From: Opitutaceae bacterium
GTDB lineage: Bacteria; Verrucomicrobiota; Verrucomicrobiia; Opitutales; Opitutaceae
Direction: 5' to 3'
Length of the DNA stretch: 64,000 nt
Assembly: GCA_026125215.1 (NCBI GenBank)
Contig: JAHCLN010000001.1
Span: 1-64,000 of the forward strand
Part shown: positions 11,901-54,780 of the stretch, piece after piece
Numbering within the stretch: the first letter of the stretch is position 1
Layout of the letters: each line of letters opens with the position of its first letter
The notes under the pieces: model-generated
Seen by the model: the letters and a program-made list of their open reading frames with translations, nothing else
What the model was told of the DNA's origin: nothing
Database searches by the model: none
Position numbers and translations under genes: made by a program

Positions 11901-11973
11901 GACGCGGCGAGGGCGCCGCGTCCCCAGCTAAGGCGAACGATGCCACTGGAGCCGCGGCGCCCTCGCCGCGGTC
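11901..11973. repeat. REP-like palindrome, left copy flanking rayT
   Basis: A 73-bp unit whose ends form a GC-rich stem (GACGCGGCGAGGGCGCCGCG with CGCGGCGCCCTCGCCGCG) around a conserved centre containing AACGATGCCACTGGA. The same unit occurs as a direct repeat at 12484-12556. Position differences inside the stem are compensatory between the copies (GAGGGC/GCCCTC here, GTGGGC/GCCCAC there). Confidence 0.85.
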
Positions 11974-12483: not shown

Positions 12484-12556
12484 GACGCGGCGTGGGCGCC
12501 GCGTCCCCAGCAAGAGCGAACGATGCCACTGGAACCGCTGCGCCCACGCCGCGGTC
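12484..12556. repeat. REP-like palindrome, right copy flanking rayT
   Basis: Second 73-bp copy of the unit at 11901, in the same orientation and differing at about ten positions. Stem changes are paired (GTGGGC with GCCCAC), so the hairpin is preserved. It lies upstream of the rayT start. Confidence 0.85.
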
Positions 12557-35757: not shown

Positions 35758-36450
35758 ATGAGTGATGACATCATGCTGAAAGTCGAGCGGCTCACCAAAA
35801 CATACGCTTCGCACGCCCCGACGGGTGCGCTGACCGTCCTGCGGGAGGTCAGTTTTTCCCTGCCGGCGGGCGCGAGCCTGGCGATCGTGGGACCCAGCGG
35901 CAGCGGCAAGACCACGCTCCTCGGCCTGTGCGCCGGTCTCGACACGCCGACGGCCGGCGAGGTTGTGCTGGCCGGGCGGAGCCTCGGGACGCTCGACGAG
36001 GACGCGCGGGCCCGGGTGCGCAACGACCATGTCGGGTTCGTGTTCCAGAATTTCCAGCTCATCCCGACGCTGACGGCTTTGGAAAACGTGCTCGTGCCGC
36101 TGGAGCTGCGCGGCGAGGGCGGCCGGGAGGAGAAGGCGCGCGCGCTGCTCACCCGGGTCGGCCTCGGCGAGCGCTGCGATCATTATCCGGTGCAGCTCTC
36201 GGGCGGCGAACAGCAGCGGGTGGCGCTGGCCCGGGCGTTCATGAACCGGCCGAAGCTGCTGTTTTGCGACGAGCCGACCGGCAATCTGGACGGGGAGACG
36301 GCCGCGGCCATGGCCGAGCTGGTCTTCGGCCTCAACCGCGAACACGGCGCGACGCTGGTGCTCGTGACGCACGACCTGGAGCTGGCGAAACGCTGCCAGC
36401 GCATCATCCGCCTGAAGAGCGGCGCGGTGGTCAGCGACGAAACGACATGA
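35758..36450 (+). CDS. ybbA: ABC transporter ATP-binding protein, YbbA/LolD type
   Basis: 230 aa. Walker A GPSGSGKTT, Q-loop VFQNFQLIP, signature LSGGEQQRVALARAF, Walker B LLFCDEPTGNLD and H-loop VTHDLELA. The QLSGGEQQR signature and short length mark the LolD/MacB/YbbA group working with FtsX-type permeases. The partner is the ybbP permease, now separated from it by a GxxExxY insertion. The stop is embedded in an ATGA, where the old overlap with the permease start probably was. Confidence 0.9.
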   Translation: MSDDIMLKVERLTKTYASHAPTGALTVLREVSFSLPAGASLAIVGPSGSGKTTLLGLCAGLDTPTAGEVVLAGRSLGTLDEDARARVRNDHVGFVFQNFQLIPTLTALENVLVPLELRGEGGREEKARALLTRVGLGERCDHYPVQLSGGEQQRVALARAFMNRPKLLFCDEPTGNLDGETAAAMAELVFGLNREHGATLVLVTHDLELAKRCQRIIRLKSGAVVSDETT

Positions 36451-36464
36451 GTTTTGTCGTCTGA
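36447..36464 (+). other. five-codon frame overlapping the ybbA stop, possible relic of the old ybbP start
   Basis: ATG at 36447 overlaps the ybbA TGA and reads M-S-F-V-V then stop. The present ybbP start, 498 bp on, reads M-N-F-I-L, and relatives would be expected to begin directly after ybbA. The inverted-repeat element lies between. Interpretation as a remnant is inference. Confidence 0.4.
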
Positions 36465-36482
36465 AAAACAACCAACCCCACT

Positions 36483-36938
36483 GCCCGCGAATAACGCGAA
36501 TACACGCAAATAAGGAGGGAGTCATGAGTGAATTGATCCACGCCAAGGAGTGCTATCAAATCGTCGGAGCCTGCTTTGAAGTTTATAACGAAAAGGGATG
36601 CGGCTTTCTGGAGCCGGTCTATCACGACTGCCTGGAGCGGGAGTTCGGCCTGCAGGCCATTCCGCATCGGCACGAACCTCCGTTGCGGCTTACCTACAAG
36701 GGACAACCTATCAAGCACACCTATTCTCCCGATTTCACCTGTTGGGACAAAATCGTGGTTGAGTTGAAAGCGGTGGAGAAGTTGACCGATGAACACACGG
36801 CCCAGGTGCTGAATTATCTGCATGCCACGGGCTATGAACTCGGCGTGCTGGTTAATTTCGGGCACCATCCGGGCTTGGAGTGGAAACGCATTGTGAGGAC
36901 GGGGAAATGATTCGCGTTTATTCGCGTCATTGGCGGGC
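36483..36938 (+). mobile_element. 456-bp inverted-repeat element carrying a GxxExxY gene, inserted between ybbA and ybbP
   Basis: Left end 36483-36511 (GCCCGCGAATAACGCGAATA...) and right end 36910-36938, whose complement begins GCCCGCCAATGACGCGAATA, are inverted copies agreeing at about 24 of 29 positions. Each arm has three CGCGAAT-like iterations and belongs to the CGCGGAT family seen gene-less at 17751 and 19131. The single gene inside has a strong ribosome-binding site and fills nearly the whole space. No transposase motif is visible. Confidence 0.75.
36524..36910 (+). CDS. GxxExxY protein (PDDEXK-like fold)
   Basis: 128 aa, preceded by AAGGAGG, the best Shine-Dalgarno site in the neighbourhood. 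The family motif is in GFLEPVYHDCLEREF; HTYSPDFTCWDKIVVELKAVEKL follows, with the PD..(D/E)xK core (PDF...ELK), then QVLNYLHATGYELGVLVNFG. GxxExxY proteins are common, often multi-copy, in Verrucomicrobia and relatives, and no biochemical role is established as far as I know. The TGA stop touches the right inverted repeat. It sits in the middle of an otherwise conserved ABC-transporter gene pair, in the same direction. Confidence 0.9.
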   Translation: MSELIHAKECYQIVGACFEVYNEKGCGFLEPVYHDCLEREFGLQAIPHRHEPPLRLTYKGQPIKHTYSPDFTCWDKIVVELKAVEKLTDEHTAQVLNYLHATGYELGVLVNFGHHPGLEWKRIVRTGK

Positions 36939-36944
36939 AAAACC

Positions 36945-39476
36945 ATGAACTTCATCCTCAAAATGGCCTGGCGGGATTCGCGTGCCTCGCGGCGGCGGCT
37001 CGCGTTGTTTTCCCTGAGCGTGGTGCTCGGCATCGCGGCGCTCGTCGCCATCGGCTCGTTCAGCGCGAACCTGCGCGTGGCGATCGACGGCCAGGCCCGC
37101 GGGCTGCTGGGGGCGGATTTGGTCATCACCTCGCGGCAGGCGATTACGACCGAGGTGCAGGCGCACCTTGACGGCCTCGGCGGCGAGCAGGCGCGGGAGG
37201 CGTCGTTTTCCTCCATGATGGTGTTTCCCTCGCCCGGGGGCGACCGCACGCGGCTGGTGCAGGTGCGCGCCGTGGAGGGCCGCTTTCCGTTTTACGGCGA
37301 ATTTCTCACGCGGCCCGGCGACGGCCCGGAGCGGCTGGCCGCCGGCGGCCCGGTCGTGCTGCTCGAGGAGACGCTGCTCAGCCAGTTTGGACTCAACCCG
37401 GGCGACACCGTGCGGCTGGGCAAGGTCACCTTCACCGTCATCGGCGCCGTGCTCAAGGTGCCGGGGGATTCCGTGGCCATCACCCAGCTGGCGCCGCGGG
37501 CCTTCATTCCGCTGGAGCAGCTGCCGGCGACGGAGCTGGCCGGTCCCGGCAGCTTCGTGCGGCACCGCATCGCGCTCAAGCTGCCGCCGACGGTGGACCC
37601 GCTCGCGGTCGAGCGCGAGATGCGGCAGAAGTTCATCACCGAGCGGATGGGCTACGACACCGTCGAGGAGCGCAAGCGCGACCTCGGCCGCGCGCTCGAC
37701 AACGTTTACGGCTTCCTGAGCCTGGTTGGTTTTGTGGCCCTCTTCCTCGGGGCGATCGGGGTGGCGAGCGCGATCCACGTCTACATCCGCCAGAAGATCA
37801 CCACGGTGGCGGTGCTGCGCTGCCTCGGGGCCAGCGCCCGGCAGAGCTTTGCGGTTTATCTGGTGCAAGGTTTGGGGCTCGGTCTGCTTGGGGCCGTGCT
37901 TGGGGCCGTGCTCGGCATCGCGGTGCAGCTGGCGCTGCCGCAGCTGGTGGCGGGCCTGCTGCCTTTTGACGTGGAGTTCTTTGTATCCTGGGCGGCGGTT
38001 GCGCGGGGCATGGGGGCGGGTCTGGTGATCTGCCTGCTTTTCACCCTGCTGCCCCTGCTGGCCGTGCGGCGGGTTTCACCGCTGGTGGCCCTGCGTTCCT
38101 CCTTTGCGGAGCAACCGGCCGGGCCGGACTTCTGGCGCATCACCCTCGGCGTGGTGATTGTGGCCGCGATTGCCGGCTTTGCCGTGGCGCAGACGGGCAG
38201 TCTCCGCCTCGGGCTCGGTTTCACCGGGGCGCTGGCGGTCGGCTTTGCGGTGCTCGCCGGGCTGGCCCGCGCCGTGGCCTGGGCGGCCCGGCGCTGGCTG
38301 CCGCGGGGGTTGCCCTATGTCGTGCGGCAGGGCGTGGCCAACCTGCACCGGCCCAACAACCGCACCGTGCTGCTGCTGCTCGCGCTCGGGCTCGGCACCT
38401 TCCTGGTCACCACGCTCTATCTCACCCGCACGACGCTGCTCGCGCAGATCCGGGACACCGGCGGCGCCGGCCGGCCGAACCTGCTGTTCTTCGACATCCA
38501 GGACGACCAGATCGGGCCGCTCAACGCCCTGCTGGCGCGGGAGGGCCGCCCGGCGGACCAGCAGGCCGCGATCGTGACCATGCGCGTGCGCTCCCTGAAG
38601 GGACGCGCCGTCGAGGACATCCTGCGCGAGCCGGGCAACCGGATCCCCGGCTGGACGTTGCGGCGCGAATACCGCTCCACCTACCGGGCGGGACTCACCG
38701 ACACCGAGGTCCTGCTGAGCGGGGAAATGGTGCCGCGCGTCGCGCCCGGAACCGAGCCCGTCCCGATCACCATCGAGGAAGGGCTGGCCCGCGACATGCA
38801 GCTGCAGCCCGGCGACGAGGTGGAGTTCGACGTGCAGGGCGTGGCGGTGCCCACCCGCGTGGCCGGCATCCGCAAGGTGGACTGGCAGCGGTTGCAGCCG
38901 AATTTCTTCATCGTGTTTCCCGAAGGCGTGCTGGAGGAGGCGCCGCAGTTCTTCGTCACCGCGCTGCGGACGGACACGCCGGCCGAGTCGGCCCGGCTGC
39001 AGCAGGCGGTGGTGCGGGAGTTTCCCAACGTCTCCGCGATCGACCTCACGCTGCTGCTGGAAAGCTTCGACACGATTTTCTCCAAGGTCGCGCTCGTCGT
39101 GCAGTTCATGGCCTTCTTCACCGTGGCGACGGGCATCATCGTGCTGGCGGGTGCCGTGCTGACCGGCCGGTTTCAGCGCATCCGCGAGACGGTGCTGCTG
39201 CGCACGCTCGGCGCCACGCGGCGGCAGCTCGTGCAGATCCAGCTCGTGGAATATGCTATCCTCGGCGTGCTGGCGGCGTTCGTGGGCTGCCTGCTGGCCG
39301 TGGGCGGCAACCTCATGCTGGCGAAATTTGTCTTCAAGACCGCCGCCACGGCCGATCCGCTCACGCTCGGCCTGGCCGTGCTGGCGGTCAGCGCGATCAC
39401 CCTGCTCACGGGCTTGCTTTCCAACCGCGGCGTCACCGACCATCCGCCGCTCGAAGTCCTCCGTCAGGAAACATGA
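36945..39476 (+). CDS. ybbP: FtsX-type ABC permease, YbbP family
   Basis: 843 aa from the ATG at 36945 (MNFILKMAWRDSRASRRRL); a TTG further up lies in the inserted repeat. Two FtsX domains with the family layout: membrane segment about 21-41, periplasmic MacB-like region, three helices around 255-380, a central 4-helix block about 405-505, a second periplasmic domain, and three last helices about 715-835 ending DHPPLEVLRQET. It should form a transporter with YbbA; substrate is unknown, though such systems handle lipophilic or peptide cargo. Its stop overlaps slyD by ATGA. Confidence 0.9.
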   Translation: MNFILKMAWRDSRASRRRLALFSLSVVLGIAALVAIGSFSANLRVAIDGQARGLLGADLVITSRQAITTEVQAHLDGLGGEQAREASFSSMMVFPSPGGDRTRLVQVRAVEGRFPFYGEFLTRPGDGPERLAAGGPVVLLEETLLSQFGLNPGDTVRLGKVTFTVIGAVLKVPGDSVAITQLAPRAFIPLEQLPATELAGPGSFVRHRIALKLPPTVDPLAVEREMRQKFITERMGYDTVEERKRDLGRALDNVYGFLSLVGFVALFLGAIGVASAIHVYIRQKITTVAVLRCLGASARQSFAVYLVQGLGLGLLGAVLGAVLGIAVQLALPQLVAGLLPFDVEFFVSWAAVARGMGAGLVICLLFTLLPLLAVRRVSPLVALRSSFAEQPAGPDFWRITLGVVIVAAIAGFAVAQTGSLRLGLGFTGALAVGFAVLAGLARAVAWAARRWLPRGLPYVVRQGVANLHRPNNRTVLLLLALGLGTFLVTTLYLTRTTLLAQIRDTGGAGRPNLLFFDIQDDQIGPLNALLAREGRPADQQAAIVTMRVRSLKGRAVEDILREPGNRIPGWTLRREYRSTYRAGLTDTEVLLSGEMVPRVAPGTEPVPITIEEGLARDMQLQPGDEVEFDVQGVAVPTRVAGIRKVDWQRLQPNFFIVFPEGVLEEAPQFFVTALRTDTPAESARLQQAVVREFPNVSAIDLTLLLESFDTIFSKVALVVQFMAFFTVATGIIVLAGAVLTGRFQRIRETVLLRTLGATRRQLVQIQLVEYAILGVLAAFVGCLLAVGGNLMLAKFVFKTAATADPLTLGLAVLAVSAITLLTGLLSNRGVTDHPPLEVLRQET

Positions 39477-51935: not shown

Positions 51936-52673
51936 ATGACGCCGCCCGCCCCCGCCGCGGCCACGCCGCGGACCCTGCGCCCGCCCGGCCCCCTCGTCAT
52001 CGAGATCGAGGGCGTCACCAAGCTCTACAAGATGGGCGCCGAGACCATCCACGCCCTGCGGGGCGTGGACCTGCGGATCCGCCGCAACGAATACCTCGCC
52101 ATCATGGGCCCGTCGGGCTCCGGCAAGTCCACCCTCATGAACATGCTGGGCTGCCTCGATACGCCCACCGCCGGCCGCTACGAGTTTGCCGGCAAGAACG
52201 TCGCCGGCATGGACGACGACGAGCTGGCCGACATCCGCAACCGCGAGATCGGCTTTGTCTTCCAGAGTTTCAATCTCCTGCCGCGGTCCGACGCGCTGCA
52301 CAACGTCGAGCTGCCGCTCATCTACGGCGGCGTGCCCGCCGCCGAGCGCCACGAACGCGCCCGCACCGCGTTGGAGAACGTGGGCCTGGGCGACCGCGTG
52401 CACCACCGGCCGAACGAGCTTTCCGGCGGCCAGCGCCAGCGCGTGGCCATCGCCCGCGCCCTGGTCAACCGGCCCTCCATCATCCTGGCCGACGAGCCCA
52501 CCGGCGCGCTCGATACGAAGACCGGCATCGAAATCATGGCCCTCTTCGAGCAGCTTTACGAGCAGGGCAACACCCTCATCATCGTCACGCACGAGGAGGA
52601 CGTGGCCCGCCACGCCCGCCGCATCGTCCGCCTGCGCGACGGCCTGATCGAGTCGGATGCGACCGCATCCTGA
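51936..52673 (+). CDS. MacB-like ABC ATPase
   Basis: 245 aa, stand-alone nucleotide-binding protein. Walker [20 protein letters not shown], signature [16 protein letters not shown], Walker [13 protein letters not shown] and [13 protein letters not shown]. In E. coli MacB is one fused polypeptide; here ATPase and permease are separate. An inserted element begins at the TGA stop (its left arm starts at 52672). Confidence 0.92.
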
Positions 52674-53096
52674 TTTTCGATTTTGGATTCTGGATTTTCG
52701 ATTTCCGTCATGACTGAAAAGGAGCTCAAACAACGGACGAAGGCATTTGCGCTGCGAATGCTGAAGTTGATTGATTCCCTGCCGGAAACGCGATCCGGGC
52801 GCGTGTTGGCCGGGCAGTTGGGACGCTCGGGCACATCGGTCGGGGCGAATTATCGGGCCGCTTGCCGCTCACGTTCCACGGCAGAGATGATTTCCAAGTT
52901 GGCGGTGGTGGAGGAAGAGGCCGACGAATCGGCCTTCTGGTTGGAATTGGTGACGGAGCACGGCCTGATGACCCCGGCTCAAACCGCGCCGCTGAGCCGG
53001 GAAGCGGAGGAACTTACGGCCATCATGGTGGCGTCCCGGCGGACGCTGGCGCGCCGCGGGTTCCAATCGAAAATCGGGAATCAAAAATCGAAAATC
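52672..53096 (+). mobile_element. 425-bp inverted-repeat element carrying a four-helix-bundle gene, copy 1
   Basis: Left arm 52672-52704 and right arm 53065-53096 are inverted copies made of 7-base iterations (GATTTTC, GATTTTG, GATTCTG, GATTTTC...). The element starts in the ATPase stop codon and ends 2 bp before the GTG start of the permease. It carries one gene and no transposase. The second copy at 54356-54780 has exactly the same length. Confidence 0.78.
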
Positions 53097-54355: not shown

Positions 54356-54780
54356 GATTTTCGATTTTGGATTCTGGATTTTCGATTTCCGTCATGACTG
54401 AGAAGGAACTCAAACAACGGACGAAGGCATTCGCGCTGCGAATGCTGAAGTTGATTGATGCCCTGCCGGAAACGCGTTCCGGGCGTGTGTTGGCCGGGCA
54501 GTTGGGTCGCTCGGGGACATCGGTGGGGGCCAATTATCGCGCCGCCTGCCGCTCACGTTCCACGGCGGAGATGATTTCCAAATTGGCGGTGGTGGAGGAA
54601 GAGGCGGATGAATCGGCCTTCTGGTTGGAGTTGGTGACGGCGCACGGCCTGATGAGCCCTGCTCAAACCGCGCCGCTGAGCCGGGAAGCGGAAGAACTTA
54701 CGGCCATCATGGTGGCGTCCCGGCGGACGTTGGCGCGCCGCGGGCTTCAATCGAAAATCGAGAATCAAAAATCGAAAATC
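54356..54780 (+). mobile_element. 425-bp inverted-repeat element carrying a four-helix-bundle gene, copy 2
   Basis: Left arm 54356-54388 is identical to the left arm of copy 1; right arm 54749-54780 differs from that of copy 1 at one or two positions. It lies between two permease genes and ends 2 bp before the ATG of the second, preserving the ATGA overlap. Confidence 0.78.

Follow-up and report, generated by a model that had tools for sequence, protein, structure and literature searches.

The element at the ybbA-ybbP junction

The window analysed here is a stretch of 64,000 nucleotides from an Opitutaceae bacterium (contig JAHCLN010000001.1). Within it, the two host genes of an ABC-transporter operon, ybbA and ybbP, are separated by an element of about 450 bp, which consists of an iterated arm, a gene and an inverted arm (table 1). 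The gene belongs to the GxxExxY family, is the only open reading frame (ORF) of the element and lies, like both of its neighbours, on the + strand. The preliminary description had placed a GxxExxY gene between inverted CGCGAAT-type arms at this position, in operon direction and with no transposase. Arms, ORF and strands bear out this picture, and the element coordinates given there are correct to within 1-2 bases. The two arms are 30 nt each, with a complementarity of 87% and a separation of 398 nt. Aligned with each other they score 40, whereas the highest value among 200 shuffles is 24. The left arm holds CGCGAAT units at 36486-36492 and 36495-36501 and a CGCAAAT unit at 36505-36511, spaced 9 and 10 nt apart. 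Read inward, the right arm holds CGCCAAT at 36929-36935 and CGCGAAT at 36920-36926 and 36910-36916. The stop codon of the GxxExxY gene overlaps this arm, so that the gene ends on its first base (36910).

The stop codon of ybbA is the TGA within an ATGA, and the same ATGA doubles as the ybbP start in relatives in which the junction is empty. Together with this ATGA, the spacer at 36451-36481 reads ATGAGTTTTGTC. It resembles the start of ybbP and is possibly the relic of a target duplication, to judge from the likeness of the two sequences. Within ybbP, the codons for WRDSR include ATTCGCG (36976-36982), which is the arm unit in reverse complement; the same holds for several carriers of CGCGAAT elements. 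This motif may be a landing signal or may be due to chance.

Table 1. Features of the ybbA-ybbP element, its host operon and sister elements in the window.
Feature	Position	Strand	Basis or remark
ybbA, ABC-transporter ATPase (YbbA/LolD-like)	35758-36450	+	host operon, upstream of element
Spacer from ybbA stop to left arm, 31 nt	36451-36481	+	sequence
Left arm, outer end TGCC	36482-36511	+	inverted-repeat alignment
Shine-Dalgarno-like AAGGAGGGAG of GxxExxY gene, directly inside left arm	36512-36521	+	by eye
GxxExxY / PDDEXK_3 gene, 128 aa, sole ORF of element	36524-36910	+	TIGR04256, PF13366
Right arm, inverted	36910-36939	+	inverted-repeat alignment
ybbP, ABC-transporter permease	36945-39476	+	host operon, downstream of element
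Four-helix-bundle (TIGR02436) element, GATTTTC-type iterated arms	52672-53096	+	sister class in same window
Second, near-identical four-helix-bundle element, same GATTTTC arms	54356-54780	+	1.7 kb from first

The encoded protein

The window protein matches TIGR04256 with 133 bits (cut-off 35) and PF13366 with 138 bits (cut-off 22). Its AF2 model has a pLDDT of 94 and a pTM of 0.86. The best PDB match to this model is the Cas4 protein SSO0001 (4ic1; Foldseek E 1.8e-4), which gives a VIA Z of 10.0 over 103 residues with an rmsd of 4.5; the next match listed has a Z of 7.7. In an alignment of 47 sequences, E30, D70, E80-x-K82 and Q94xxxY98 are invariant, meaning that the D-ExK-QxxxY site is intact. 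A RecB/Cas4-type PD-(D/E)XK nuclease fold is confidently predicted from the model for the window protein. Cas4 proper has four conserved cysteines for an Fe-S cluster. These were sought in the GxxExxY alignment, and no cysteine occupies an invariant or nearly invariant column. The protein is predicted to be of RecB/Cas4 type yet is not a Cas4, because the defining cysteines are absent; Cas4 proper is ruled out on this ground. A PDB sequence search with the window protein returned T7 endonuclease I matches only, all of them non-significant. Close relatives in plasmid records number only eight, and the phage records searched hold none. Residues 7, 10, 11 and 14, together with 97 and 114-119, covary most with positions 4/5 and 7 of the arm unit, a pattern that phylogeny confounds. 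The first four line the N-terminal helix, which is a candidate for the recognition helix.

Distribution and structure of the arms

This genome carries five GxxExxY genes and ten four-helix-bundle genes, most of them between inverted arms of iterated units, and the arm unit differs from element to element. The four-helix-bundle elements follow the same plan as the GxxExxY elements with an unrelated protein; the corresponding domain, PF05635, resembles Avd (PMC10053308). To sample many phyla, 80 GxxExxY loci were taken from genome contigs, of which 76 were testable, with other ORFs of the same loci as controls and an alignment score of at least 26 as the threshold for an arm call. Arms flank 59 of the 76 genes (78%, about 18 phyla), compared with 4 of 283 control ORFs (1.4%; Fisher 7e-47). 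In the bacterial family of the window the fraction is 76/92. The prospect that GxxExxY genes would prove generally armless, with the arms of this locus shared by no other, is thereby removed. Genes with no detectable arms amount to 17/76 in the many-phyla sample and 16/92 in the window's family, where several of the armless calls reflect arms that are read into the N-terminus of the protein (e.g. NHEGHKEHEG).

The arm unit of GxxExxY elements is a CRCRRAN heptamer, usually present three times per arm at a spacing of 9 +/- 1 nt. In 148 of 208 arms a C stands before the outermost unit; inner units mostly follow an A, and the outer cap is CC. Nested forms also occur (L058, L093, L094, L104, L106, L111 and L131), in which a complete hairpin of arm and reversed arm stands on each side of the GxxExxY gene. 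These look like composites of two gene-less elements.

Co-evolution of arms and protein

Among 129 GxxExxY elements, protein similarity predicts arm similarity. The Mantel r is 0.48 over all pairs, 0.40 over pairs from different sites and 0.36 over pairs from different phyla, against a permutation maximum of 0.08, and correction for flank composition barely alters it. Proteins of the GPGLLESAYE type pair with CACAGAG/CACGGAG arms, those of the ESYxIxGACFEVY type with CACGAAA, CACGGAA or CGCGAAT arms, and the remaining types with CACTAAT or CACAGAT arms. Four-helix-bundle elements use other units and exhibit the same link (r 0.43, n=29, p<1/5000); 2 of these 29 proteins are probably in the wrong frame, which could only lower it. 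Such a relationship, read from sequences, is what would be expected if the encoded protein specifically recognized the arms, unlike a passenger gene.

Gene-less hairpins

In 61 genomes of the family, which hold 231 GxxExxY genes, 1625 three-unit arms were counted; the reversed control pattern gave 22. The median per genome is 2 where the gene is lacking and 21 where it is present (p 1.9e-4; Spearman 0.54; values uncorrected for phylogeny). Gene-less arm hairpins are thus abundant only in genomes that carry GxxExxY genes. In G024, all nine neighbouring pairs of opposite arms face inward, and eight of the nine are gene-less. The preliminary description held that movement, with no transposase encoded, would rely on something else. 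The first part stands, but the encoded protein is now the best candidate for mobility because of the arm-protein link and because gene-less arms depend on the gene.

Genome G057 offers further forms. A repeat of about 270 bp with TTAACC...GGTTAA ends occupies many sites (L283, L284, L285, L287, L290, L291 and L296) and holds an embedded 80-bp CACAGAG hairpin; it is apparently a MITE that captured an arm hairpin. Three other loci (L288 400-650, L289 400-571 and L292 400-571) have near-identical 25-nt CACAGAG arms around unrelated interiors of 170-250 bp, with different flanks and, in L292, weak GxxExxY remnants. The arms there may carry arbitrary cargo or, as the sequences might also be read, decayed genes. 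A separate 68-bp GC-rich hairpin (CGCGGCGAGGGCGCCGCG...) is found twice in the window, at 11903-11970 and 12486-12553, about 580 bp apart.

Movement and re-use of junctions

Uninterrupted ybbA-ybbP junctions, which the preliminary description had proposed to look for, are present in relatives of the same genus. In G001, G003 and G004 the element is absent and the two genes are joined by the ATGA stop/start overlap; in G002 there is a short gap only. The junction is occupied by a GxxExxY element in 16 genomes including this one, with CGCGAAT, CACGAAA or CACGGAA arms. Across these carriers the identity of the element protein is hardly correlated with that of YbbP (r 0.11, 120 pairs). Between G000 and G031 the element proteins are 85% identical and the YbbP proteins 55%. 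Between L041 and L085, YbbP is 81% identical, the element protein 58%, and the arms differ. The YbbP tree requires 10 gains or losses of the element. Vertical descent of the ybbA-ybbP elements as a single clade is at odds with the discordant trees and weakly rejected (AU test of a single origin for all 16, p 0.021). Element and host trees are discordant, and therefore the element reached one junction horizontally and repeatedly. Horizontal acquisition at a specific intact site, a trait of homing endonuclease elements, is attested by the discordant trees and precise empty junctions. Sequence comparison establishes mobility, horizontal transfer and the link between arms and protein.

Two copies within one genome (L060 and L224) share homology that is confined to the element, their flanks being unlike. 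Element proteins with 88% identity occur in Bacteroidales and Treponema assemblies, where contamination is possible. Comparison of element edges with empty sites for target duplications gave suggestive ATGA/ATGAGTTT repeats and no clear duplication, and no strand-transfer signature was resolved at these edges. At the ybbA-ybbP junctions of other genomes, gene-less or decayed arm pairs are seen in L034 (1204-1500, 297 bp) and L043 (1297-1500, 204 bp).

Other junctions were found with the joined flanks of further G000 elements as queries. At the junction before ftsY, G000 and G002 carry a GxxExxY element and G003 a gene-less CGCGGAT hairpin; G001 has a GTAGCGAG hairpin there, and G004 retains a remnant of 11-13 bp. 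At another junction, taken from its ORFs to be that of gyrase, G000 has a four-helix-bundle element and G004 a GxxExxY element; the hairpins of G001 and G003 at this site contain no gene. The occupancy of the ftsY and gyrase junctions is mixed, and therefore both families share insertion sites. A general mechanism common to two gene families, as first suspected for this window, gains support from both observations: each family has iterated arms that co-evolve with its protein, and both appear at the same junction in sister species. Neighbours of elements are co-directional in 29 cases versus 4, a strong same-direction bias in operons that selection for transcription and for intact genes can explain. 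An arm unit in the host flank, as a landing signal, occurs in 16 of 89 cases against 5.5 expected; this is a lead only, since non-independent ybbA-ybbP loci account for part of the excess.

Proposed mechanism and alternatives

The best explanation, to which we assign a probability of roughly 0.6, is that the junction holds a copy of a small selfish element without a transposase; the element's nuclease would recognize its own iterated arms, and insertion would be homing-like. (i) The GxxExxY nuclease would recognize its own arm unit, CRCRRAN, about three of which make up an arm. (ii) It would bind and cut DNA at the arms, the junction or both. (iii) Host recombination or repair would then copy the element into the cut, as in homing. 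A host or other trans-acting factor would be needed because the nuclease alone cannot account for insertion at a new site. (iv) The insertions that persist would be only intergenic ones in operon direction, because the host transcribes these and no gene is broken. A wider proposal is advanced tentatively, at somewhat less than even odds: one small protein, either a Cas4-like nuclease or an Avd/S23-like four-helix bundle, may define a new class of element by recognizing co-evolving inverted arms, moving its own element as well as gene-less hairpins in trans, and targeting operon junctions. The intervening sequences (IVSs) of rRNA would be a specialized outpost of this class.

An element that acts at the RNA level, like the 23S IVS, is unlikely. 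Its arms would pair in the transcript, RNase III would trim them, and spread would proceed via reverse transcription in trans. The architecture matches the Coxiella IVS (PMC4990558), the four-helix-bundle family is akin to Avd, a partner of the reverse transcriptases of diversity-generating retroelements (PMC10053308), the window transcript folds with its arms paired (z -2.34), and the co-directional bias in operons points the same way. Substitutions in one arm are, however, unmirrored in the partner (8/54 at pairing versus 13/108 at non-pairing positions, a small test), a k-mer scan of the fetched loci found no rRNA host and one chance-level 12-mer match, and the sole gene encodes a nuclease with DNA-processing relatives. 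Within an element the two arms have spacers of equal length in 93% of cases, compared with 57% for arms of different elements with the same unit, and their three outermost bases agree. This agreement, with no mirrored substitutions, appears to suit recognition of defined ends of DNA better than the maintenance of an RNA stem.

Two further readings have to be weighed against the homing-like one. Movement by a transposase encoded elsewhere, with the element as a non-autonomous, MITE-like unit and GxxExxY as a passenger or a defence/toxin-like gene, is improbable. Size, terminal inverted repeats and the plentiful gene-less hairpins speak for it, as does the CACAGAG hairpin of G057 embedded in a larger TTAACC/GGTTAA-ended repeat. 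Against it, arms co-evolve with the encoded protein across phyla, gene-less arms are scarce where the GxxExxY gene is absent, and each of the two unrelated gene families comes with arms of a family of its own; the PADLOC match of GxxExxY, which bears on a defence role, is weak (E 0.0017). A vertically inherited host operon gene, with arms that serve as attenuators or processing sites and with absences due to loss, is very improbable indeed. Such a gene would be suited by the junction being occupied in 16 relatives, by the possible scars that L040 and L042 show, and by the single clade that seven CGCGAAT elements form at ybbA-ybbP. The discordance of element and YbbP trees contradicts it, as do the ectopic copies and the AU-test result for a single origin (p 0.021), and repeated losses are not expected to restore the exact ATGA overlap common to several empty relatives.

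Many bacterial phyla commonly encode GxxExxY and four-helix-bundle proteins. If these proteins mobilize elements with hairpin arms, a single idea would account for many 'hypothetical' genes, for abundant intergenic palindromes of the CACGAAT/CACAGAG type and for the long-open origin of 23S rRNA IVSs. It would also provide a family of nucleases for which the arms directly disclose the sequence specificity. The open literature searched, with paywalled papers and bioRxiv outside its scope, contains no description of such elements; it mentions the GxxExxY family by name in two papers and its Pfam domain in one more, each time incidentally. GxxExxY elements are apparently a widespread, undescribed class of mobile element.

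Relationship to known systems

Nucleases of the Cas4, RecB and lambda-exonuclease-like groups (4ic1, 3syy) have the fold and the D-ExK-QxxxY site in common with GxxExxY proteins, whereas the latter are a minimal 125-aa form and lie outside CRISPR or recombination operons. We know of no iterated arms in association with Rpn/YhgA proteins. These are likewise PD-(D/E)XK nucleases, of a different family, and are tied to RecA-independent DNA transfer in the accessible text of PMC5350276.

An insertion sequence or transposon is ruled out, as no transposase is encoded. MITEs and the REP/REPIN-RAYT system likewise consist of short intergenic palindromes that a trans-acting protein spreads, and REP/RAYT combines a Y1 transposase with GTAG/CGTC-tagged hairpins. 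The gene-less forms described here are short and multi-copy with inverted ends, as MITEs are; the gene-bearing form has a coding gene, which MITEs lack. In contrast to both systems, the GxxExxY element has no Y1 or DDE transposase, its three-unit arms co-vary with a nuclease, and its gene-bearing form is only about 450 bp. Homing endonuclease genes, including those of PD-(D/E)XK type, likewise consist of a lone nuclease gene; they too are re-acquired horizontally at a single exact site, have empty alleles and are patchily distributed. GxxExxY elements differ from them in having no intron or intein splicing, and in their inverted iterated arms and gene-less derivatives.

The nearest relative known is the IVS of 23S rRNA, a hairpin with an S23 gene. 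The accessible text of PMC4990558 gives the Coxiella IVS as 428 nt with a 28-bp terminal repeat stem and one S23p ORF. IVSs of Coxiella and Leptospira thus share with the window element a length of about 430 nt, terminal inverted repeats of about 28-30 bp and one small ORF. They likewise have no transposase and are suspected of being mobile or selfish (PMC4990558); their S23 four-helix-bundle family is the sister gene family here. Iterated units, arm-protein co-evolution and gene-less derivatives characterize GxxExxY elements and are not described for the IVS in that part of the source. The IVS sits in rRNA helices and its ORF is an S23p four-helix bundle, whereas the window element lies at the protein-operon junction ybbA-ybbP and encodes a PDDEXK_3 nuclease.
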